Assembly: GCF_003172895.1 (NCBI RefSeq) | Contig: NZ_QGKL01000024.1 | Span: forward strand, 1 to 64,000 | Reading direction: 5' to 3' | Length of the DNA stretch: 64,000 nt | Origin: Leucothrix arctica | GTDB lineage: Bacteria; Pseudomonadota; Gammaproteobacteria; Thiotrichales; Thiotrichaceae | Shown: in pieces, positions 17,827 to 34,265 of the stretch | Numbering within the stretch: position 1 is the stretch's first letter | Layout: each line of letters begins with the position of its first letter | Position numbers and translations under genes: made by a program | The notes under the pieces: model-generated | What the model was told of the DNA's origin: nothing | Database searches by the model: none | Seen by the model: the letters and a program-made list of their open reading frames with translations, nothing else

Positions 17827-18540
17827 ATGGAACTCTTTTTTGGCTACTTGGCAGGGGTGTTAACACTGATTAATCCGTGTGTACTGCCAGTATTGCCGAT
17901 TGTTTTAGCATCAGCGATGCAAGCAGGGCGTCATGGTCCACTCGCTATTGCCGTAGGTATGAGTCTCTCATTTGTTATCTTAGGTATGACCGTCGCAACC
18001 GTTGGTCACAGCATTGGTTTAACCGAAGATAGACTCTCGCAAATTGGTGCAGTGCTGATGATGGTGTTTGGCCTAGTGCTACTCATTCCACAACTCAACG
18101 AACGATTTGCAACCGCTACCGCGAGCTTTAGTGGCTCAGCAGATCAGCAAATGAATCAACTTAAAGTGTCGAGTATGAGAAGCCAGTTTTTTGGCGGTAT
18201 ACTACTAGGCGCGGTGTGGTCTCCATGTGTTGGCCCAACCTTAGGCGGTGCCATTTCCCTTGCCAGCCAAGGTGAAAGTTTGTTGTGGGTGTTTGCAATC
18301 ATGACCAGTTTTGCACTAGGTGTTTCTAGCATTATTTTGCTACTGGGCTACGGCACAGGAGAAGCGATTCGCCGTCGTCAGCAACAGTTGCGCGGTCTTG
18401 CGGAGCGAGCTAAACCGATTATGGGTATCACCTTCCTAGTCGTGGGAATTATGATTTTCTTTAAATTTCATCATCTGATTGAAGCATGTTTAGTCGACGT
18501 GCTACCAGACTGGTTTCAAGATCTTTCGACTACGTATTAA
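17827..18540 (+). CDS. CcdA/DsbD-like thiol transporter membrane protein
   Basis: A 237-residue membrane protein of the CcdA/DsbD-transmembrane family, which passes electrons from cytosolic thioredoxin to periplasmic thiol proteins. The two reactive cysteines are in their expected helices: C18 in INPCVLPVLPI and C134 in WSPCVGPTLGG. About six hydrophobic segments are visible. A periplasmic thioredoxin-like protein is encoded 13 nt downstream and is the natural partner. It could serve cytochrome c maturation or general periplasmic disulfide reduction; no ccm genes are nearby, so I infer the latter. Confidence 0.9.
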   Translation: MELFFGYLAGVLTLINPCVLPVLPIVLASAMQAGRHGPLAIAVGMSLSFVILGMTVATVGHSIGLTEDRLSQIGAVLMMVFGLVLLIPQLNERFATATASFSGSADQQMNQLKVSSMRSQFFGGILLGAVWSPCVGPTLGGAISLASQGESLLWVFAIMTSFALGVSSIILLLGYGTGEAIRRRQQQLRGLAERAKPIMGITFLVVGIMIFFKFHHLIEACLVDVLPDWFQDLSTTY

Positions 18541-18553
18541 TTGAGGAATAGTT

Positions 18554-18964
18554 ATGAAACGTCGTACATTTATTGGTTTAGTGGCAGGACTTACGTTAGC
18601 GCCAAGCCTATTATTTGCAGGAACAGAGCTGATTTACACGCCGGGTTTGATCAAGGAAAAGTTGGCAGAAGGTAAGACAGTCTTTGTTGATTATGCAGCT
18701 TCTTGGTGTAGCACCTGTAAGCGTCAAGAGCGTGTAAGAGATCAGCTGCGTGAAAGTAACCCAGAGTATGATAAGAACTTAGTATTTATTCGTGTGGAAT
18801 GGGATGTTTATAATTCGCACGCGGTTACTACAGATCGCAATATTCCACGTCGCTCAACGTTACTCGTGTTGCGTGGTGACAAAGAGTTAGGGCGCATTGT
18901 ATCGGGCACTAGTGTCAATGAAATAAAAGCGTTAATGGATAAAGGCATCGCTAAAGAGTCGTAG
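18554..18964 (+). CDS. Periplasmic thioredoxin-like protein
   Basis: A 136-residue thioredoxin-fold protein. The N-terminus MKRRTFIGLVAGLTLAPSLLFAG is an export signal with a twin-Arg start, cleaved near residue 22. The redox motif WCSTC (C52, C55) follows VDYAASW. The family resembles the C-terminal domain of DsbD and related reductants. It is translated directly after the CcdA-like gene, and together they look like a split DsbD: membrane shuttle plus periplasmic reductase. A strong bidirectional terminator follows. Confidence 0.9.
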   Translation: MKRRTFIGLVAGLTLAPSLLFAGTELIYTPGLIKEKLAEGKTVFVDYAASWCSTCKRQERVRDQLRESNPEYDKNLVFIRVEWDVYNSHAVTTDRNIPRRSTLLVLRGDKELGRIVSGTSVNEIKALMDKGIAKES

Positions 18965-18985: not shown

Positions 18986-19027
18986 AAAAAAGCGCGCTAC
19001 CAGTGACTGGTCAGCGCGCTTTTTTTA
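18986..19027. terminator. Bidirectional terminator between thioredoxin and lectin genes
   Basis: Stem AGCGCGCT (18991-18998) with AGCGCGCT (19013-19020) flanked by an A-tract on one side and T7 on the other, so it can stop transcripts from both strands. Confidence 0.9.
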
Positions 19028-19050: not shown

Positions 19051-20373
19051 TTAAAAACGGACTTCACACACAGCACGGTTATCGGTGCTGACCTTGCGCC
19101 ATTTACCCGTCCAAGTACCGTTGTTTTGTGCTGCATACAATGGGCACTTAGTGTTTGCTTGATTAGCATCCCAAATATAACCAGAGTCTACTTCACGTGT
19201 GTTACGCGTAGGTACTGGAGCAGGAGCTGTAAAGTTGACATAAGTCGTTGGCGCCGCTGTCACAACGGGAAGTTGCTGTGCTGTACCAAACTCAACTTCA
19301 CATACTGCACGGTTGTTGGTGCTGACCTTGCGCCATTTACCCGTCCAAGTACCGTTGTTTTGTGCTGCATATAACGGGCACTTACTGTTCGCCTGATTAG
19401 CATCCCAGATATAACCAGAGTCAACTTCACGCGTGCTTTTACTCGGTACGTGATGAACTGGCGCTGGTGCTGCCTGAGCAGCTTGCACTTTGCGAAGCGG
19501 TTGGTATCTAACTTCACAAACTGCTGCATTGTTAGCACCTACTTTACGCCATTTACCTGTCCATGTTCCATTAGTCTGCTGGGCAATTAAAGGGCACTTA
19601 CGGTTTGCTTGAGTAGCATCCCAAATACCACCTGCTGACACTTCACGAACAGTATTGCGATCTTGACGTGACGGTTTTACGACAGGTTTAATCGCGACGA
19701 CTCTTGGTGGTATTGGCTTTACTACAGGCTTAACGAGTACTTTGATCTCACAGGTAGATCTTTCACCCACTGACGACCAACGCTTAGTCCAAGTCCCTTT
19801 GTTTTGTTGTGCTAACTGAAGGCAACGCTTATTCGCATGTGGTTGATTCCAGATCTTTCCAGCTTGAACCTTAATTGTTTTATAGGTCGGTCTGACAGGT
19901 TGAACTGCCTTACGTGGTTTAATTTCGATTTGACAGAAAGACGGAACTTGAGCGGTTTTAGCGCTCCACTTACCCGTCCAGCGGCCGCCTTTTTCTTTAG
20001 CGATTTGTGGGCAACGTTGGTTAGCGTGTTGCTGATTCCATAGTTGCTGCGCATTTACCTTGATCAGTTGGCCCTGTCTAGGTGCTGGCTTTGGTGGCGC
20101 AATGATTTTTACAACTGGGTCTGGCACAACGATTTGGCAATGACCATCTAATGAGCCCGGCTTTAGTGTGTAGCGACCAGTCCATTGTCCTCTGACTTTT
20201 TGAGCGGCCCTTTTACAGCGAATGTCTGCAAAGAACTTACTAAAAAGTGGTCCAGCTTCAACGTTAATTGTTTTTGCTTGAACCGTACTAGCGGTAGATA
20301 CACCTGCAATCACGAGTGATGCAAATAATGCTGATTTTCCCATGCTGCTAGCACGAGTGTTTGTTTTTTTCAT
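19051..20373 (-). CDS. Secreted six-repeat MVL-like (mannan-binding) lectin-type protein
   Basis: A 440-residue exported protein. A signal peptide of about 33 residues (ending STVQA) precedes six repeats of about 48 residues. Each repeat begins with a strand of the form I-x-V-x-A-G-x-(L/I)-W and contains G-x-W-T-G-(K/R)-(W/Y), the hallmark of the Microcystis viridis lectin (MVL) family. Unlike classical MVL, each repeat also has two Cys (in R/K-C-P and C-E/Q-(I/V)), suggesting one disulfide per repeat after export. Basic proline-rich linkers separate repeats. Repeats 5 and 6 are almost identical in protein and DNA, pointing to recent duplication. A glycan target is inferred from the family; no experiment supports it here. 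Confidence 0.75.
   Translation of the reverse strand: MKKTNTRASSMGKSALFASLVIAGVSTASTVQAKTINVEAGPLFSKFFADIRCKRAAQKVRGQWTGRYTLKPGSLDGHCQIVVPDPVVKIIAPPKPAPRQGQLIKVNAQQLWNQQHANQRCPQIAKEKGGRWTGKWSAKTAQVPSFCQIEIKPRKAVQPVRPTYKTIKVQAGKIWNQPHANKRCLQLAQQNKGTWTKRWSSVGERSTCEIKVLVKPVVKPIPPRVVAIKPVVKPSRQDRNTVREVSAGGIWDATQANRKCPLIAQQTNGTWTGKWRKVGANNAAVCEVRYQPLRKVQAAQAAPAPVHHVPSKSTREVDSGYIWDANQANSKCPLYAAQNNGTWTGKWRKVSTNNRAVCEVEFGTAQQLPVVTAAPTTYVNFTAPAPVPTRNTREVDSGYIWDANQANTKCPLYAAQNNGTWTGKWRKVSTDNRAVCEVRF
19061..19434 (-). repeat. Recently duplicated 143-bp lectin repeat units
   Basis: The DNA at about 19061-19203 and 19292-19434 is nearly identical, differing at scattered, mostly silent positions. These encode MVL-like repeats 6 and 5. 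The similarity suggests recent duplication or gene conversion and could allow repeat-number changes by recombination. Confidence 0.8.
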
Positions 20374-20461
20374 TATGAAATAGCCTCCTTAAAATCAAGT
20401 ATTTAGAAATTATCACACTATGACTGCCTAATGTTGGCAAATATAGGTAAGTGGCGATTGA

Positions 20462-24283: not shown

Positions 24284-25468
24284 TCAAAGCCAGCCAGATC
24301 GTAATACCTCATAACACGCACCCATTGTATGGTAGTCAGTCTTGGCAATAGGCGATTTTTTGTCGTTAATTTTCTGATTATCTTGCGTCAATGATTGATA
24401 CCAAGCGCCATACTTATGGTCGACTAAATGCTCCCAGCTGTACTCCCAGATTTTCTGATACCAGTCTTTGTAAATAGTTTCTTTAGTCGTTTTAGCAAGG
24501 AGTGCCGCTGCGGCAATACCTTCTGCCTGTACCCAGCAATATTTATCACCATCACAGATGTTACCGTCGAGATCAAAGCCATAACATAAGCCGCCATTGT
24601 CATCATCCCAAGCAATATCCACAGCAGAATCAAAGAGTGTTTTAGCGGTCAGTACCGACCAATCATTTTTTCGATGGCGATGCAAAATCAATAACAACTT
24701 TGCCCACTCAGCTTGGTGGCCTGTTTGAAATCCCCAAGGACGAAATAGATTTTTTGGGTCATTTTTATTGTATTCCCAGTCTATTTCCCAGTTTTCGTTG
24801 TAGTGTTCCCACACTAAGTTGCCCCATTTATCAGCGAGCGTATAGGTTAGATTAGTGGCTATTACCTCGGCGCGGTCTAAGAAGCGAACTTCGCCTGTGG
24901 CTTCGTACGCCCACAACATCGCTTCACAACTATGCAGATTGGAGTTTTGACCACGATAGGGGTCTATGACGCTAAAATCAGCATTGGCTTCATCACGGTA
25001 GAGTCCTGCCTCTTCGTCCCAGCAGTGCTTTTCCATAATAGCCCATGCAGAATCGATTGTTTTTCGTCCTTCTGCAACACCGGCTAATAATGCAGTCGCG
25101 CCAGCGGTCATAACGAAGGCTAAGCCATAGCAATGATTAGAGTCATCTTCCACACCATCTTTGCCTAGCACCCAGGCGTAACCTGACTCACTCGTTTGTC
25201 GATGTGCTGTTTCTAGGTGGGCTAAGCCATGCCTAATCCAAGTCTGATAACTGCTATCTTTGAAGTGTCTTGCGGCCATTGAGAAGTTAAATACAAAGCG
25301 CGCGCTACCGACTAAATGACGCGTATGAGGGTCATAAATGGAGCCATTATCACGGAAGTTCTGAAAGAAGCCGCCATTTTCATCAAAAACATTAGGCTTA
25401 TAAAACGCCAATGTTTTTTGTATGTGTTGCTCTAAAGTGTTGACTGATTGGAAGTCGGGGAACTTCAT
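24284..25468 (-). CDS. AGE-family sugar isomerase/epimerase, paralogue 1
   Basis: A 394-residue (alpha/alpha)6-barrel protein of the N-acylglucosamine 2-epimerase superfamily, which contains mannose isomerases, cellobiose epimerases and YihS-type aldose-ketose isomerases. The three catalytic-type histidines are visible in SNLHSCEAMLWAYEA, GHQAEWAKLL and DYHTMGACYEVLR. It lies at the end of an alpha-glucoside import locus, so interconversion of glucose/mannose/fructose is the likely role. The ATG at 25468 follows an AGGT SD. It is a close paralogue of the gene immediately upstream, and its promoter gap holds a LacI-type operator-like site. Confidence 0.85.
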   Translation of the reverse strand: MKFPDFQSVNTLEQHIQKTLAFYKPNVFDENGGFFQNFRDNGSIYDPHTRHLVGSARFVFNFSMAARHFKDSSYQTWIRHGLAHLETAHRQTSESGYAWVLGKDGVEDDSNHCYGLAFVMTAGATALLAGVAEGRKTIDSAWAIMEKHCWDEEAGLYRDEANADFSVIDPYRGQNSNLHSCEAMLWAYEATGEVRFLDRAEVIATNLTYTLADKWGNLVWEHYNENWEIDWEYNKNDPKNLFRPWGFQTGHQAEWAKLLLILHRHRKNDWSVLTAKTLFDSAVDIAWDDDNGGLCYGFDLDGNICDGDKYCWVQAEGIAAAALLAKTTKETIYKDWYQKIWEYSWEHLVDHKYGAWYQSLTQDNQKINDKKSPIAKTDYHTMGACYEVLRSGWL

Positions 25469-25549
25469 ATTACCTGCCTTACCGATTAAAGTTTTAAGTG
25501 CTGGCACGTTTGTTTAGCAGCGATAATTGACCGCTTACTTGGCACAAAA

Positions 25550-25561
25550 ACAAACGATTTC
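25550..25561. promoter_or_regulatory. LacI-type operator-like site upstream of AGE paralogue 1
   Basis: ACAAACGATTTC shares AAACGATTTC with the operator-like site before the GH13 phosphorylase gene (44975-44986) and fits most of GAAAnCGnTTTC. It lies about 80 nt upstream of the isomerase start. The 178-nt gap otherwise shows no gene. Confidence 0.4.
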
Positions 25562-25685
25562 TGTAGAGCCTTCTAATATTTATTGCTCGTACCTTTTGCG
25601 CATCACTAATAATGATTATTTAATAACCTGCTATTTAACAGATATATTACTTAGTATTAAATACTCACGATTAATTTAAAAGGGT

Positions 25686-26873
25686 TTAAAGGAAATTAGA
25701 TCTTAATACTTCATAACACGCACCCATTGTATGATAATCCGTCTTCCCAACAGGTGACTTGAGATTGTCCATTTTTTGGTTGCTTCGTGTCAGTATTCGA
25801 TACCAAGCACCGTACTCATGATCAATCATATGGTTCCAACTGTACTGCCAAATTTTCTGATACCAGTCGCTGTAAACACTCTTTCCCGTTGCATGTGCTA
25901 ATAGTGCCGCTGCGGCGAAACTCTCCGCTTGCACCCAGAAGTACTTGTCACCATCACAGACATTACCCTCTAGGTCAAAGCCATAACAAATACCGCCATT
26001 CTCAATATCCCATGAGATATCTAGCGCACGATCAAACAATTTCTTAGCGGTCGGAATAGACCAGTCATTGGGGCGGTGACGGTGCAATATTAATAATAAC
26101 TTTGCCCACTCTGTTTGGTGGCCGGGTTGGAAACCCCAAGGGCGGAATAGATTTTTTGGATCTTCCTTGTTGTAGTCCCAATCAATGTCCCAATTTTCAT
26201 CATAGTGCTCCCAAACTAAGCCGCCACTTTTAGCAGCTTGGACTTGGGTGATGTTGTTTGCTAATAACTCGGCACGGTCTAAATAGCGCACATCACCAGT
26301 CGCTTCATACGCCCATAACATTGCTTCGCAGCTATGCATATTGGCGTTTTGCCCACGGTAAGGGTCAATAACACTAAAGTCAGCATTGGCTTCGTCACAG
26401 TAAAGGCCTGCTTCTGCATCCCAGAAGTGCTTTTCCATGAGCGTCCATGCCGCTTCCAAAGACTGACGGCCTGCTTCCACACCAGCAAGCAAAGCGGTTG
26501 AGCCAGCAACCATAACAAAGGCCAAACCATAACAATGGTTAGTAGCATCGACCACGCCAGTCTCATCTAACACCCATGAGTAACCGCGCTCGCCATTGGG
26601 TTGGCGATGCGCAGTTTCAAGGTAATCTAAACCATGTTCGACCCAAGGCAAGTAACTATCATCAGCAGAGTAACGTGCGGCCATTGCATAGTTAAATACA
26701 AAGCGACTGCTACTGACTAAATGACGGGTTTCCGCATCATAAACACTGCCATCATCACGAAAATTTTGGAAGAAACCACCCGCAGCATCAAATACATTGG
26801 GCTTATAAAAAGCCAATGTTCGCTGGATATGTTGTTCCAAGGTATAGGCTGACTTGAAGTCTATCTGTGCCAT
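25686..26873 (-). CDS. AGE-family sugar isomerase/epimerase, paralogue 2
   Basis: A 395-residue paralogue of the next gene downstream, with the same catalytic-type histidine segments (ANMHSCEAMLWAYEA, GHQTEWAKLL, DYHTMGACYEVLR). The proteins match along their whole length, including the first line LEQHIQ-TLAFYKPNVFD. I chose the ATG at 26873 (MAQIDFKSAYTLEQH), which follows an AAGG SD; the longer open frame overlaps the transporter ATPase gene and has no family similarity. It is the last gene of the LacI-controlled ABC transporter operon and probably processes the imported or released sugar. Confidence 0.87.
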   Translation of the reverse strand: MAQIDFKSAYTLEQHIQRTLAFYKPNVFDAAGGFFQNFRDDGSVYDAETRHLVSSSRFVFNYAMAARYSADDSYLPWVEHGLDYLETAHRQPNGERGYSWVLDETGVVDATNHCYGLAFVMVAGSTALLAGVEAGRQSLEAAWTLMEKHFWDAEAGLYCDEANADFSVIDPYRGQNANMHSCEAMLWAYEATGDVRYLDRAELLANNITQVQAAKSGGLVWEHYDENWDIDWDYNKEDPKNLFRPWGFQPGHQTEWAKLLLILHRHRPNDWSIPTAKKLFDRALDISWDIENGGICYGFDLEGNVCDGDKYFWVQAESFAAAALLAHATGKSVYSDWYQKIWQYSWNHMIDHEYGAWYRILTRSNQKMDNLKSPVGKTDYHTMGACYEVLRSNFL

Positions 26874-26901
26874 GGTGCGTACCTTGCAAGTTAAAGTGGG
26901 T

Positions 26902-27969
26902 TTAAGCGGTGTCGGTAATGGTATTGCCCGCTTCATCAAACCAGTAAACCATGCTCTCACGGCACTGGAGCTGCACGTTTTCACCGGTCTTGTATTCACG
27001 TTCTGGGTCTGCACGAACGACTAATGTACCCACGTTTTCAACATCAACGTGTACAAAGCTATCACTACCGAGCAATTCTGCAATACCGATCACGCCCGAT
27101 ATGTGTCCATTTTCAACAATGTCGATATGCTCAGGGCGAACCCCTAGTTGCGTTGCTGTTTCTGGTTTGCTGCAACCGCGAGTTGTACGAATAACTGACT
27201 TGTCACCTAGCTCAACACTATCATCGGAAGAGGGCTTACAGCTCACGATATTCATCCGTGGTGAGCCGATAAATGTCGCCACAAACAGGTTGGATGGGTT
27301 GCGGTAGAGTTCGAGTGGTTTGCCCACTTGCTCAATGGTTCCCGAAGAAAATACCACGATGCGATCGGCCAATGTCATTGCTTCCACTTGGTCATGCGTC
27401 ACATAGATCATGGTTGCTTGCAGCTTGTGTTGTAGGCGCGCTATTTGCACACGCATATCAACACGTAATGCGGCATCTAGGTTTGACAGTGGCTCATCAA
27501 ATAAAAATGCTTTTGGGTTACGCACGATGCAGCGACCGATGGCGACACGCTGGCGTTGACCACCTGATAGGTCTTTCGGTTTGCGATCTAGCAGACTATC
27601 TAGCTTTAGTACGTCAGATGCTTCAGCGACACGCTCCTTGATCTCTGCACGGCTTTTCCCTGCAACTTTCAGTGGGAAGCCCATGTTTTCGCCAACGGTT
27701 TTGTGCGGGTAAAGTGCATAAGACTGAAACACCATCGACAAGCCACGCTCAGAGGCAGACAGTGCAGTCACATCTTCACCGTCGATAAACACTTGCCCAT
27801 CACTGGTTTCTTCAAGACCTGCAATCAGCCGTAGCATGGTTGACTTGCCGCAACCAGATGGCCCGACAAACACAACGAATTCTTTGTCATTAATTACGAA
27901 GTCCACACCTTTGATAACGTTGACGTCACCGAAGCTTTTGTGGATATTTTTAAGTTCAATCTGTGCCAT
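26902..27969 (-). CDS. ABC transporter ATPase, UgpC/MalK type
   Basis: A 355-residue sugar-importer ATPase. Walker A GPSGCGKST, the signature LSGGQRQRVAIGR, Walker B FLFDEPLSNLD and a C-terminal OB-type regulatory domain (after about residue 235, IGSPRMNIV...LGVRPEHIDIV) mark the MalK/UgpC class. It powers uptake of an alpha-glucoside with the two permeases and the binding protein encoded upstream. It overlaps the GH63 gene by 14 nt and precedes AGE paralogue 2 by 28 nt, so all are one operon. Confidence 0.95.
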   Translation of the reverse strand: MAQIELKNIHKSFGDVNVIKGVDFVINDKEFVVFVGPSGCGKSTMLRLIAGLEETSDGQVFIDGEDVTALSASERGLSMVFQSYALYPHKTVGENMGFPLKVAGKSRAEIKERVAEASDVLKLDSLLDRKPKDLSGGQRQRVAIGRCIVRNPKAFLFDEPLSNLDAALRVDMRVQIARLQHKLQATMIYVTHDQVEAMTLADRIVVFSSGTIEQVGKPLELYRNPSNLFVATFIGSPRMNIVSCKPSSDDSVELGDKSVIRTTRGCSKPETATQLGVRPEHIDIVENGHISGVIGIAELLGSDSFVHVDVENVGTLVVRADPEREYKTGENVQLQCRESMVYWFDEAGNTITDTA

Positions 27970-29242
27970 GGTCGGCTCCTTGCATTACCCAATCGAGATA
28001 GACAGACGCTGTCCATGTGAAGTCTTTACCGCCGAGGCCTTCGCCAGTAATAGGGTCGAAATATTCGAAAAATTTACTCTGTGTGATGAGTGCTTCCGAG
28101 TCAGCCCGGATGCGCTCCGCTCGCTCAGTTTCACCGTGCTCAGCAAAACCTCTACCGATGCTGTCATTGATCACGTGCCAGACTGGGCCGCGCCAATATC
28201 GCTTTGCATCAAAGTCTGCATGGTCAGGGTCAAAGCTTGGCACCATGAACTTGACCTTGTTTGATATGCGATCAAATTCACCCATCAATTTCTCATGTCG
28301 GCCTTCTTCATAAACACCTGCAAAACATGATAAGAAGCTTGCTGATGATACGCTGTTAATGTGTTTTTGCTCGACGGGGTCGTAGCAGGTGTAAGCGTTA
28401 ACCTTGTCATTCCACAAGTTTTTCCAGCCGCGATCTAAGCTTTCTATGTGCTGTTGCACGGTGCTTAGTGCTGCTTGGTTATCGGGTTGGTGCTTTTGAA
28501 GTAATGCCAAAAGGTCACGGCTGGAGCGTAATAAAAACGCCGTCATGCCGGGGTCCACCATCCGAAACGGTGAGTGCTGACCGAGGTGGTCTTGTCGCCA
28601 TTGATGATCGCGACCATATTTTATAATAGTTAGGTAGCGGTCGTACTGTTCTTTCGTTGGGCGTTGGCTTGCATCAACATGGTCTAAGTCACGACGTGTG
28701 TAAGGTGGTAAGTCGGCTATCTCGACACGTGCCATGCCACTGTCCCAGTCAGACATGTTGTCACGGCCAGATTCCCACGGGTGAATGATGGCAATCGCTT
28801 CCGTTTGTGGCTCTTGGCGCGCCACTATAAACCACTCGTGCCAGCGAACTAAACGACGCAACATATCATGCATTTCTATGCTGTCATCGAGCGGGTGAGT
28901 GTCATCTAAACGTCGGATTACTGATGCTAAAACAGGCGGTTGGGTAATGCCCGAAGTCGGCGTGAATTGACCGGTTTTCCAAATGCTAGGACCAGGAAAA
29001 TAACCATCGTGATGGCCTCTAAACATAATGTGAGGAATCATGCCGTCAGGCCACTGCGAAGAAGCCAGTTGTTGAACTTCTTGCCACGCACGCACAGGGT
29101 TTATAAAGCGATAACCGAGTGCCGCAAAGGCTGAGTCCCAGTTAAATTGCACCGGGTACAAACCCTGTGTTGGTAAGGAATAAGTCCCACGGTCATTGGT
29201 CTTTAAAATATCAATGGCGTCTTGGTAGAGTGAATGAGTCAT
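27956..29242 (-). CDS. GH63-type glycoside hydrolase, probable glucosylglycerate/mannosylglycerate hydrolase
   Basis: A 428-residue (alpha/alpha)6-barrel hydrolase. The pattern FNWDSAFAALGY, SQWPDGMIPHIMF, WESGRDNMSDWDSGM and RYWRGPVWHVIND resembles the GH63 group that includes bacterial glucosylglycerate and mannosylglycerate hydrolases. It has no signal peptide, so it acts on substrate taken up by the ABC transporter. Embedded in the operon and opposite gpgP-gpgS, hydrolysis of glucosylglycerate to glucose and glycerate is the most economical assignment. Trehalase or a generic GH15/GH37-like activity is less likely. Substrate is inferred from context. Confidence 0.78.
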   Translation of the reverse strand: MTHSLYQDAIDILKTNDRGTYSLPTQGLYPVQFNWDSAFAALGYRFINPVRAWQEVQQLASSQWPDGMIPHIMFRGHHDGYFPGPSIWKTGQFTPTSGITQPPVLASVIRRLDDTHPLDDSIEMHDMLRRLVRWHEWFIVARQEPQTEAIAIIHPWESGRDNMSDWDSGMARVEIADLPPYTRRDLDHVDASQRPTKEQYDRYLTIIKYGRDHQWRQDHLGQHSPFRMVDPGMTAFLLRSSRDLLALLQKHQPDNQAALSTVQQHIESLDRGWKNLWNDKVNAYTCYDPVEQKHINSVSSASFLSCFAGVYEEGRHEKLMGEFDRISNKVKFMVPSFDPDHADFDAKRYWRGPVWHVINDSIGRGFAEHGETERAERIRADSEALITQSKFFEYFDPITGEGLGGKDFTWTASVYLDWVMQGADHGTD

Positions 29243-29250
29243 AAGTGTTG

Positions 29251-30480
29251 TTATCCTTTCACACTGCCGGCCGTAAGACCCTGCACAAGGAAGCGTTCAG
29301 CCCATAAGAAGATCACTAGAATAGGGGCGGTCGCAATCACTGCACCAGCCATTAAATGCTGCCTAGGTACTTCTGAAGAGTTGAGCGATACCACGCCTCG
29401 CGACAAGGTAAACATATCCGGATCGTCCAAGAACATGAAGGCAAAGAGGAACTCATTCCAAGCAATCATGAAGACATAGAGGGAGACCGAGGCGAGAGCG
29501 GGTAAGCTCAGCGGAAGGGTAATGGTTAAGATCACACGAATACGGGAACAGCCATCCATCATGCCTGCTTCTTCTAGCTCACGGGGTAAACCACGGAAGT
29601 AACCTTGTAGCATATAGAGTGCGACAGGCAGTGTGGTTGCAGGATAAACTAGCAACAGCCCCGTCAAACTATTGCGCAAACCAAGCTGTGAAAAAACAGC
29701 ATAGAGCGGAATAACTAAAACGATCGCAGGTACAAGGTAGATCATTAGAATGGAGCGTGATAACAGCACACGACCGGGGAAGTTTAAACGCGACACGGCA
29801 TAAGCACCCGGCACTGCAAATAGCAGCGTAATAATGACTGTTGTGACCGATACGATAGTGGCATTTAACAGGTAAGTGTCGAAGTTAAACTTGGTGAAAA
29901 GCTCAATGTAAGAGCGGAACAAGTCTGGCAGTGACTGACCAAAGTCAGGCATCAAATTCAGCGGATTCATTAGCAACTCTTGCTGGCTCTTCAAGCTCGA
30001 CATAATCAATACGTAGAGCGGTAGCAAGATCATGACACCAAAGAACAGAAAGCCGAAGTGACGCATTGAACTGATGAAGGAGAGCTCAAGGTTTCGTCGG
30101 TTAATACTGTCTTTGTCTAACGTCGCTAAAATGTTGTACATGACGGTACTTTGTATCCATGAAAACCCTGCAATACCGAGTAATTGCCACAATATTCCAT
30201 CACTTAACGGTGCATTAAAGGGTTGGAATAGCGACAGCAGTAATAGTGTTACTGCATGAATCACAAAACTGATTTGCTTATGTCGTGTATCACGTCCAGT
30301 GCGTGAGGCAATCGCTATCCAGATCGCACCAATGATGCCAGTGATAAAGAACACAGACAGTGTCGGGCGAATCGGTAAACCACTTAACAGCGCGATGATA
30401 ACGGTGATGGAAATACCGCTGAGTACAGCCCAAATGCCGCCTGTTAGCATCACATAAAAGGGTGTTAGGTACTTAATCAT
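29251..30480 (-). CDS. Sugar ABC permease (MalG type) with N-terminal membrane extension
   Basis: A 409-residue permease. From about residue 140 it follows MalG: TM1 in HFGFLFFGVMILLPLYVLI, and the EAA loop ELEEAGMMDGCSRIRVILTITLPLSLPAL that docks on the ATPase. The first 135 residues are extra, with about four hydrophobic segments (8-30, 38-58, 68-87 and 98-115). The extension could help assembly or sensing. It overlaps the MalF-type gene by 4 nt. Usual MalG proteins are about 270-300 residues, so the length is clearly atypical. Confidence 0.9.
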   Translation of the reverse strand: MIKYLTPFYVMLTGGIWAVLSGISITVIIALLSGLPIRPTLSVFFITGIIGAIWIAIASRTGRDTRHKQISFVIHAVTLLLLSLFQPFNAPLSDGILWQLLGIAGFSWIQSTVMYNILATLDKDSINRRNLELSFISSMRHFGFLFFGVMILLPLYVLIMSSLKSQQELLMNPLNLMPDFGQSLPDLFRSYIELFTKFNFDTYLLNATIVSVTTVIITLLFAVPGAYAVSRLNFPGRVLLSRSILMIYLVPAIVLVIPLYAVFSQLGLRNSLTGLLLVYPATTLPVALYMLQGYFRGLPRELEEAGMMDGCSRIRVILTITLPLSLPALASVSLYVFMIAWNEFLFAFMFLDDPDMFTLSRGVVSLNSSEVPRQHLMAGAVIATAPILVIFLWAERFLVQGLTAGSVKG

Positions 30481-31745
30481 AATCCTTCCTCCTTCGGGAT
30501 ACTGCGGAAGTAAAGCAGTGACATGATGAGTAGCAGTACAAAAATAACCACAGCAACGGCTGAGCCTGCACCTAAGTTACTGAGCGCAAAAGCTTGCTCG
30601 TAAACGTCTACGGTGAGGGTACGTGTGCCTGCGTTTCCGCCGGTGAGGAGAAAGATGTCGTCGAACTTGTTAAACGTCCAAATGAAACGCAATAAGAACA
30701 ATACCGCCAAAATGCCTGCAAGCTGCGGCAGTGACAGACTCCAGAATTGTTGCAGCGGTGATGCGCCATCCATTTCCGCGGCTTCGTACATATCAGTGGG
30801 GATGGATTGCATCCTCGCCATAATGAACATAAACGCGAGCGGAAAGTAACGCCAAATCTCAAAGGCGATAACCATCGACAGTGCCACGGGAAATTGGAAC
30901 TCCATACCAAACAAGTCAATCGGTGTATCACGTATGCCGAAGAAGTTTATCGACTCACTGACCACGCCCATTTGTTTGAGCAGTGCGTTGACCACGCCTG
31001 AGTAGGGGTCAAATAGTACTAACCATGTAAACGCCATGGCGATAACAGGCGCAACGTAAGGGAAGAGAAATAAGCCTCGAACGACGGTTCGGCCTTTAAA
31101 CTCCCGTTGCAGTAGCTGTGCGGCAAATAAACCCATGATGAGTGCGCCGATAGTCCCTGCAAAGGTATAAACCATCGTGACCCAAAGCACATGCCAAAAG
31201 CTTTCGGAATCAAATATTTTGGTGAAGTTTGACGTGGTGAAACTAAAGTTAGTTAACACGTTATCAGATGTGCCACTCATTAACGGTGTAATGCTTTTGA
31301 GGGGCACGGGATTTTTAATATACGAAGCATCTGCGGTGACCGGTATTTTTAATCGCTCACTAAACTTAGCGGGAAAGTCGTCAAAGTCACAACTTAGATC
31401 AGGCGCAGCGTACTGACAGCGAGGATCAACTTCTGTGATGGTGATGCCCGTCGGCATGGTTGCTTTGAAGGTGATGTCGCTAACCGGTTTTTGTTGCGAG
31501 GTGTTACGCAAACGAAACTCTAAAATAGCACTATCGCCCGCTGCTTCTAAGCTACCACGGAGCCGTGCTTTGGCCGTTGCTTCTGGTGCACGTAAGTCGT
31601 TTAAAGTGACGGGTTTAACACTAATCCAGAAGGTTGCGGCGAGTGGTAATAATACAATTGCTAATACCACAAATATAGTTGGCAACAGCATACTGTAGGC
31701 GAGTTTGGCCTCGCGCCGCGCCATTGGTCCGGCTGTAGTACTCAT
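30477..31745 (-). CDS. Sugar ABC permease (MalF type) with periplasmic insert
   Basis: A 422-residue permease from the ATG at 31745. TM1 lies at about residues 18-41; then comes a periplasmic stretch of about 140 residues (45-185) containing a beta-rich, Ig/DUF11-like segment (FRLRNTSQQKPVSDITFKAT, PTGITITEVDP) with two Cys (C110, C119) that may pair. The usual permease core with EAA loop MYEAAEMDGASPLQQFWSLSLPQL follows. E. coli MalF has a large periplasmic P2 loop at a comparable place, which contacts the binding protein; I infer a similar role. Confidence 0.9.
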   Translation of the reverse strand: MSTTAGPMARREAKLAYSMLLPTIFVVLAIVLLPLAATFWISVKPVTLNDLRAPEATAKARLRGSLEAAGDSAILEFRLRNTSQQKPVSDITFKATMPTGITITEVDPRCQYAAPDLSCDFDDFPAKFSERLKIPVTADASYIKNPVPLKSITPLMSGTSDNVLTNFSFTTSNFTKIFDSESFWHVLWVTMVYTFAGTIGALIMGLFAAQLLQREFKGRTVVRGLFLFPYVAPVIAMAFTWLVLFDPYSGVVNALLKQMGVVSESINFFGIRDTPIDLFGMEFQFPVALSMVIAFEIWRYFPLAFMFIMARMQSIPTDMYEAAEMDGASPLQQFWSLSLPQLAGILAVLFLLRFIWTFNKFDDIFLLTGGNAGTRTLTVDVYEQAFALSNLGAGSAVAVVIFVLLLIMSLLYFRSIPKEEGL

Positions 31746-31856
31746 GCTTTTTGCTCGAAGTAAGGGTTTAAAGGGATTAATACTCCACAAAGCACAGTCA
31801 AAAAGGGGAGGCTTTGTGAAGTATTAAATAGTCAGATGACTCGTCGAAAAACGCGA

Positions 31857-33206
31857 TTAGTCGATCTTACTTAACTCATCATTCATTGCTTTAACGGTTG
31901 CAGCAGCGTCACGCGCACCATCAACATACTCACGTACCAAACGATTGATGATTTGTGAGTTAACAATCTTAGAAGAAACCGAGAGTTGGCCTTCTTTTAC
32001 ACCCCAGCGATCAGCCGTTTCTAGACCGACCGTGATCGACGCAATAGTCTCTTTGTCATATAACTCAGACAAAGGCTTTTTACGGTCAACACCCACAGGC
32101 AGTTTTGCCCAAGCTTCTAGGAACTTAGTTGGCGCTTCTGTCGTTCCACGACGCACTGGGAACTTACCTTCAGGCGCGATAGACAAGGTGTTTGTGTAAC
32201 CTTCATTCATCGAGAACTCAACGAATTTGATAGCGGCTTCAGTATCTGCATCGTTAGTAATACCGAAGTAACGAATGTCAGCCCATGCTGCGCCGTCAGG
32301 GTTACTTGGACCTTGGAAACGCGTCACAACACCAGTCTTACTTGCTAGGTCTGTAGACTGTGGATCATCATTAATCGTTGGTGGCGCTGAGTCACGTAGA
32401 CCTGCTAGCTCATCAAGGATGAACGGAGACCAGATGATCATTGCCGCTTTACCCGCGAAGTACATTTCACGAGACTGCTTCCAGTACAAGTCACCTGGAG
32501 GTGACGCTTTTACCAGTGTTTTATAGAAATCTAATACTTCAGTCGTTGTTTTCACATCTAACGGTGAGAAGCCTTTATCGTTAACAGGCGTAACACCATT
32601 CGCAAGGAATACGTGCTCCAGTACCTGACTCATGAAACCTTCATCAATCTTAGTCGGTGCAACAAAACCGTAAAGAGAAGGTGGGTTGTGCAATGCTGCA
32701 ATCGCTTTAGTGATCGCGTCATAACTGGTTGGCGCAGCGAGGCCTTTTGCTTTAAATAAGTCTTTGCGGTAAAGCACTAACTGAGTCCAACCATCAACAG
32801 GGACAGCAGCATAGCCTTCTGGCAATTTAGCCATATTCAATGCGCCCGGCGCAAAGGTATCAATACCTAATGACTCGATAACTTCACTGTTTGTTTCTGC
32901 GTCTAAAATACCGGCTTCAACCCATGGTAGTGCGTACTGAAGCGGGTGATAAATGATATCCGGAAGGTCATTGGCAGCCAACGCAGCGGTTGCACGTGTG
33001 CCAAGATCTTTCTCAGTGACAGGGATGATTTTTACTTCGATGCCACTCTTTGCTTTAAAATCATCAACCATAGCTTGTTGCTTGGCTAAACGTTCCGGTT
33101 GCTCTTCTGTCGTCCAGAATCGCAGCGTGTCTGCAGATGCAGCACCGCTCAGTAACAGCGATGTCGCTAATGCCAAGGTAATTTTCTTTAACGGGAATGT
33201 CTTCAT
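31857..33206 (-). CDS. Extracellular solute-binding protein of the sugar ABC importer
   Basis: A 449-residue family-1 binding protein. The Sec signal MKTFPLKKITLALATSLLLSGAASA is cleaved before DTLRFWTTEEQPER. It captures the sugar in the periplasm and delivers it to the MalF/MalG-type permeases. It starts 3 nt after lacI ends, with a strong GGAGGAAA SD located in the 3' end of lacI, which should allow higher expression of the binding protein. A 111-nt gap separates it from the permease genes. Confidence 0.93.
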   Translation of the reverse strand: MKTFPLKKITLALATSLLLSGAASADTLRFWTTEEQPERLAKQQAMVDDFKAKSGIEVKIIPVTEKDLGTRATAALAANDLPDIIYHPLQYALPWVEAGILDAETNSEVIESLGIDTFAPGALNMAKLPEGYAAVPVDGWTQLVLYRKDLFKAKGLAAPTSYDAITKAIAALHNPPSLYGFVAPTKIDEGFMSQVLEHVFLANGVTPVNDKGFSPLDVKTTTEVLDFYKTLVKASPPGDLYWKQSREMYFAGKAAMIIWSPFILDELAGLRDSAPPTINDDPQSTDLASKTGVVTRFQGPSNPDGAAWADIRYFGITNDADTEAAIKFVEFSMNEGYTNTLSIAPEGKFPVRRGTTEAPTKFLEAWAKLPVGVDRKKPLSELYDKETIASITVGLETADRWGVKEGQLSVSSKIVNSQIINRLVREYVDGARDAAATVKAMNDELSKID

Positions 33207-33209
33207 CTC

Positions 33210-34265
33210 TTATTTCCTCCTCAGTTCCAAGAGATTATTGCGGTCGACTCTACGATCAGAGTCGCGTTCGATAAGTTGTAACGGTTGTAAAATGTGCTCT
33301 GGTGCTTTGTCGGGGTCAGCTAAGTTACGCAGTAACATGCGAGTGACTTGTTCTCCCGCACTGCTAATAGGCTGGCGTAAGGTCGTAATAGCAGGGGTGA
33401 CGAAAGACGCGAGAGGGAAATCACCATAACCAATAATGGCTATATCTGTTCCCACTAGAAGCCCATGTTGTTGAATGGCCTGCATTGCGCCAACAGCCAT
33501 CGCGTCGCTGCCACAAAAAATAGCGTCGGGGTTAGCTTCTGCCGCGTTTAGCCAGTTGTACGTGATGTCGAATCCGCTCGATTCGCTCATGGTGCCTTCT
33601 GCACATTGCATCGTAATTTCATCGCCCGCTTTGTTTATTGTCTGGCGAAAGCCTTGTTCCAATAAGCGAGAGAAGTTAAACATGGTTGGTGGTGTGATCA
33701 ACGCAAGACGCTTGTGGCCTTGCTCAATAAAGCGGTTAGCCACTAACTTCGCCCCACTCAACATATCCACGTCATACCAGCTGAAATCTTTAGAGCGCGT
33801 AGTGCGACCGTGACAAACAAAAGGGATGTTTTTTTCTTTTAAGAATTTGATGCGTTCATCTTGAGGGCGAGTACGTGTCACGATAAAAGCGTTTGCTTTG
33901 TTTTCACGCACTAAACGTCGATACACTTCGAGTTCAGATATTTGACAAGGAGGGGTCGTAATCAATAAGTCGCGCTCAGCCGTTGCTAGTGTGTCGCCAA
34001 CGCCCGCAATAAAGGCGGCAAAGAATGGGTCAGAAAAACGATGTATGCCAGGTGGTACAACATAGGCAATAGTATCGACACGAATTTGTCCGCGAGCCAG
34101 TTGTTGCGCTATACGAGAAGGTCGGTAGTTCAGCTCTTTCGCCGCTTCTTGTACACGACGGCGAGTGTCAGCACTAATGTCGCTGTAATTGTTTAAAGCG
34201 CGAGACACTGTGCTAGGTGTTAAGCCCAAGTGCAAAGCCAACTGTTTTAAGTTAATAGCTGTCAT
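33210..34265 (-). CDS. LacI-family transcriptional regulator of the sugar operon
   Basis: A 351-residue regulator: N-terminal HTH and hinge helix (INLKQLALHLGLTPSTVSRALNNYSDISADTRRRVQEAAKELNYRPSRIAQQLARGQ) and a periplasmic-binding-protein-like sensor domain from about residue 60. It is the first gene of the operon and contiguous with the binding-protein gene. Two LacI-type half-palindromes lie immediately upstream, and the same motif lies before the GH13 phosphorylase gene, suggesting that one regulator controls both. The effector is probably the imported glucoside or its product. Confidence 0.93.
   Translation of the reverse strand: MTAINLKQLALHLGLTPSTVSRALNNYSDISADTRRRVQEAAKELNYRPSRIAQQLARGQIRVDTIAYVVPPGIHRFSDPFFAAFIAGVGDTLATAERDLLITTPPCQISELEVYRRLVRENKANAFIVTRTRPQDERIKFLKEKNIPFVCHGRTTRSKDFSWYDVDMLSGAKLVANRFIEQGHKRLALITPPTMFNFSRLLEQGFRQTINKAGDEITMQCAEGTMSESSGFDITYNWLNAAEANPDAIFCGSDAMAVGAMQAIQQHGLLVGTDIAIIGYGDFPLASFVTPAITTLRQPISSAGEQVTRMLLRNLADPDKAPEHILQPLQLIERDSDRRVDRNNLLELRRK

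Follow-up and report, generated by a model that had tools for sequence, protein, structure and literature searches.

The first 64,000 nucleotides of contig NZ_QGKL01000024.1 of Leucothrix arctica (hereafter the window) carry, on the minus strand at positions 19051 to 20373, a gene for a 440-residue protein that is a new, multi-domain variant of the known MVL lectin family. With moderate confidence, this protein can be viewed as an exported, disulfide-stabilised and multivalent lectin, predicted to bind glycans in attachment or aggregation. The open reading frame starts with an ATG at 20371-20373, 10 nt downstream of a Shine-Dalgarno-like AAGGAGG motif (20384..20390, minus strand), and finishes with a stop codon at 19051-19053. 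Its product matched the Pfam family MVL (PF12151) in six stretches (E=8.1e-28; 96.6 bits against a curated cut-off of 25), in agreement with the family membership proposed in an initial annotation of the sequence. The first 33 residues (20275..20373, minus strand), inspected by eye, have the features of a Sec-type signal peptide with cleavage between ...STVQA and KT, which fits the export signal proposed in the same annotation; similar N-termini, reading AQA followed by K or R, are found in the homologues from genomes G003, G004 and G006. A mobile or viral origin of the gene was considered and rejected, given that its GC content is close to that of the window and that no match appeared in phages, plasmids (searched with a two-domain relative, L049, as query) or viral contigs.

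The six MVL domains of about 49 residues contain exactly two cysteines each, 12 in total, as initially described. All encoded on the minus strand, they comprise R1 (residues 35-83; 20125..20271; Cys 53/79), which is degenerate, R2 (residues 103-151; 19921..20067; Cys 121/147), R3 (residues 166-212; 19738..19878; Cys 184/208), R4 (residues 242-290; 19504..19650; Cys 260/286), R5 (residues 314-362; 19288..19434; Cys 332/358), homogenised with R6, and R6 itself (residues 392-440; 19054..19200; Cys 410/436). Tandem Repeats Finder did not report this array because unlike linkers separate the repeats, and a scan of the protein against NCBIfam returned no matches. The linkers span 14-29 residues, and the basic character first attributed to all of them holds for four of the five, which are also Pro-rich, the R5-R6 linker having a single basic residue in 29. 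The conserved Trp of the IWN motif and the TGxW motif are present in R2, R4, R5 and R6; R3 has TKRW, and R1 has F and Y (TGRY) at two conserved Trp positions. The loop that follows TGxW reads RKVSTNNRAV in R5 and departs from the classical TT(V/I)xxxMSV in the other repeats as well. Considering this differing loop and the loss of the Trp/Gly positions in R1, and partly in R3, the sugar site may be changed or lost in some domains.

A sequence search of the PDB gave as sole relative of the lectin the Microcystis viridis lectin MVL (1zhq/1zhs; E=5.7e-7). The single-domain model of R6, built from 16 rows, reached a pLDDT of 95.6 and matched 1zhq with a TM of 0.87, an rmsd of 1.0 Å over 46 columns and a probability of 1.00, the E value being only 4.8e-3 for such a very short chain and that of the next match 1.5. 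In the two-domain R5-R6 model, the beta-alpha-beta-beta arrangement occurs twice, joined by a linker of low confidence, and 1zhq was again the only significant PDB match (E=1e-8, probability 1.00), with a TM of 0.36-0.41 and an rmsd of 10.4 Å. Such overall values are as expected if each modelled domain matches 1zhq and their relative placement does not. The structure prediction called for in the initial annotation thus recovered the MVL fold. Microcystis MVL (PDB 1ZHQ, 1ZHS; PF12151) shares with the window lectin the beta-alpha-beta-beta domain, the G-x-[IL]-W and TGxW motifs and the presence of tandem domains. It is, however, a homodimer of 113-residue chains, each with two domains and a 5-residue linker (PMC8004682, PMC3407925), and its matched sequence is devoid of cysteines, whereas the window lectin has six domains with a Cys pair in each, a signal peptide, linkers of 14-29 residues and, after TGxW, no loop of the TT(V/I)-xxx-MSV type. 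The glycan core Man(a1-6)Man(b1-4)GlcNAc(b1-4)GlcNAc is a ligand of Microcystis MVL, which also has one site that cleaves chitotriose (PMC8004682; PMC3407925). Since the loop after TGxW differs in the window lectin, this specificity should not be carried over to it.

Additional MVL domains were gathered, with a profile made here, from genomes that share the window's family, class or phylum and from named genomes. In the resulting alignment of 86 domains, which are not independent (many come from one bacterial family, and the cyanobacterial sampling is Microcystis MVL only), both cysteines are present in 84/84 proteobacterial domains and absent from the 2 Microcystis domains, none having just one. 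Judging from these sequences, the Cys pair appears to be a proteobacterial rule and no peculiarity of the window lectin; the initial annotation had taken it as a distinguishing feature and had seen two repeats as the family norm, but proteins with 1, 2, 3, 4, 6 and 7 repeats were all found. Degenerate first domains stripped of their Trp residues still have the pair, which is better conserved than W10 (kept in 59/86 domains). This pattern, the divergent loop after TGxW and the missing aromatics of R1 would fit MVL domains that no longer bind sugar and act instead as scaffolds, held by disulfides, with a structural or protein-binding role. We regard this as improbable, however, as R2 and R4-R6, most of the repeats, retain W10, G32 and W34, and so do many orthologous repeats.

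Some members from other families form a subclass with four cysteines, the extra ones occupying columns 23 and 46-47, which places them a single helix turn and one or two strand positions from the standard pair, a spacing consistent with a second helix-strand disulfide. A carbon-nitrogen hydrolase (L056, 1483-2691, minus strand) carries one such four-Cys domain as a C-terminal fusion. The two-domain MVL proteins of Rhodobacteraceae (L018, L019 and L020) resemble the window lectin in having a signal-like N-terminal segment and the Cys pair at the same columns, but their domains lie about 3 residues apart and retain the classical WTTVxxxMSV loop. L049 (2-940, plus strand) has two classical-loop MVL domains at the C-terminal end of a 313-residue open frame that is cut by the contig end and has no Pfam match in its N-terminal part.

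Leucothrix species are marine epiphytes. Within the Thiotrichaceae, an MVL match was obtained in 10/63 genomes, most of the family being without one, and homologues with 4 to 7 MVL domains occur in two of its genera, in line with the variable repeat number that had been anticipated. Counting degenerate first domains, six domains are found in G795 and G797 and seven in G796; the homologue of G003 has six, that of G004 four, that of G005 at least five (it lies at a contig edge) and that of G006 seven (across two overlapping contigs). The G005 contig comes from the window's own genus and has a sequence identical to that of CALHTA010000011.1, described as 'uncultured Thiotrichaceae bacterium'. All these multi-domain proteins share with the window lectin a high pI and Cys pairs, and differ from it in domain number and in showing no homogenisation of repeats as strong as that of R5 and R6. 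Separate three-domain MVL proteins are present in G004, G794, G796 and G797, the one in G004 (L045, 5834-6481, minus strand) consisting of classical-loop, Cys-paired domains almost free of linkers. The last MVL repeat of the G003 gene (L043, just below 6730, minus strand) has an in-frame TGA at a conserved Trp codon, which could be either a real truncation or a sequencing error.

The last two repeats of the window lectin are alike at the DNA level far beyond chance. R5 and R6 share 131/147 nucleotides (89%) and 94% of their residues; of the codons that differ, 10 are synonymous and 3 non-synonymous. The runner-up, R4/R5, has 68% nucleotide identity. The near identity reported initially was therefore real, but the recent duplication invoked to explain it fits less well than homogenisation. 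A tandem duplication that created R5 and R6 recently, a matter of repeat history independent of function, would readily give an identity so far above that of other pairs; it is nevertheless doubtful, because G003 shows the same six-domain order. Moreover, in G003, G005 and G006 the linker between the last two repeats resembles the window R5-R6 linker more closely than shuffled sequences do (p 0.001-0.006, with many pairs compared), and R5/R6 identity drops at the domain edges. A DNA tree of terminal repeats joins the window's R5 and R6 as sisters (99/97), and forcing R6 to group with the other last repeats carried a penalty of 25.6 log units (AU p=0.024, of modest strength given 147 columns). 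With a linker common to relatives, an identity confined to the domains and an R6 that groups with R5 and not with its counterparts in sister species, gene conversion between two old repeats is the simplest and more likely reading of these sequences.

Downstream of the lectin gene, in convergent orientation, lie a gene for an exported thioredoxin-like protein with a CSTC motif (18554..18964, plus strand), whose position next to the lectin gene is conserved in four congeneric genomes, and a paired gene for a DsbD_TM/CcdA-like membrane protein (17827..18540, plus strand). The order lectin/thioredoxin/DsbD_TM is kept in G003, G005 and G006. Between the lectin and thioredoxin genes, a GC-rich hairpin flanked by an A-run and a T-run (18986..19026) is visible in the sequence and is likely a bidirectional terminator for both, although it was not among the reports of a terminator scan of the window. 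A close thioredoxin orthologue (E<1e-40; next best 2.5e-10) was found in 6/63 Thiotrichaceae genomes, all 6 falling within the 10 that have MVL genes, for which the chance value of about 3e-6 is not a fair probability, as the genomes concerned belong to only two genera. In G796 and G794 the thioredoxin and DsbD_TM genes stay together but apart from the lectin gene, and the near-complete genome G004 encodes a lectin of four domains but no close thioredoxin. Because the pair is oriented towards the lectin gene, it does not share a transcript with it. The lectin-thioredoxin link is thus suggestive only, and it seems unlikely that the DsbD_TM/CcdA-like protein and the thioredoxin form a dedicated thiol-disulfide relay for the Cys-rich lectins, making lectin and oxidoreductase an export-and-folding unit conserved in Thiotrichaceae.

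Elsewhere in the window, a minus-strand cluster at 24284-34265 encodes a LacI regulator, a sugar ABC transporter, an MGH1-like/glucosylglycerate-hydrolase-like glycosidase and two tandem AGE-family (D-mannose-isomerase-like) proteins, and looks like a system for hexosylglycerate uptake and use. A connection with the lectin was rejected and the proximity taken as coincidence, the cluster being absent beside the lectin gene in those flanks of relatives that were examined.

In the favoured model, the lectin chain would leave the cytoplasm via Sec and, in the oxidising periplasm, acquire one putative disulfide per MVL domain, linking the middle of the helix to the last strand. Such bonds would allow lone 49-residue domains to stand on flexible, mostly basic and Pro-rich linkers, in contrast to Microcystis MVL, which is stabilised by its tight two-domain dimer. 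The six-domain string would then be released or kept at the cell surface. The genome encodes a type II secretin, and therefore a route past the outer membrane (OM) exists; Pfam found in the lectin neither a surface anchor nor a dedicated OM export domain. A signal peptide with no recognised surface-export signal could also be that of a periplasmic or envelope protein whose MVL domains hold GlcNAc-containing polymers of the cell itself (peptidoglycan, LPS or exopolysaccharide) instead of foreign glycans. Its marked positive charge (pI of 10.3 for the mature protein, and basic linkers) would favour binding to anionic polymers, and the GlcNAc-GlcNAc binding and chitotriose cleavage of Microcystis MVL (PMC8004682) point in the same direction. 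We consider this possible but rather unlikely, since neither Pfam nor NCBIfam revealed a peptidoglycan-binding or OM-anchoring domain; a Peptidase_M15_4 match was rejected, as it extends over 28 residues within R2 where MVL also matches and scores under the cut-off in the orthologues of G003 and G004. In the preferred model of an exported multivalent lectin, several weak sites would together bind a repeated glycan, most likely in bacterial attachment or aggregation, with the number of domains shifting between species and gene conversion homogenising adjacent ones.

Knowledge of MVL comes mostly from a single cyanobacterial lectin, which has been studied with antiviral use in mind. The proteobacterial family described here is Cys-paired, usually has a signal-like N-terminus and is often multi-domain, so that it is the type member that seems atypical. 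Its natural strings of six to seven domains, apparently stabilised by disulfides, are candidate high-avidity glycan reagents and, in filamentous bacteria, candidate attachment proteins.
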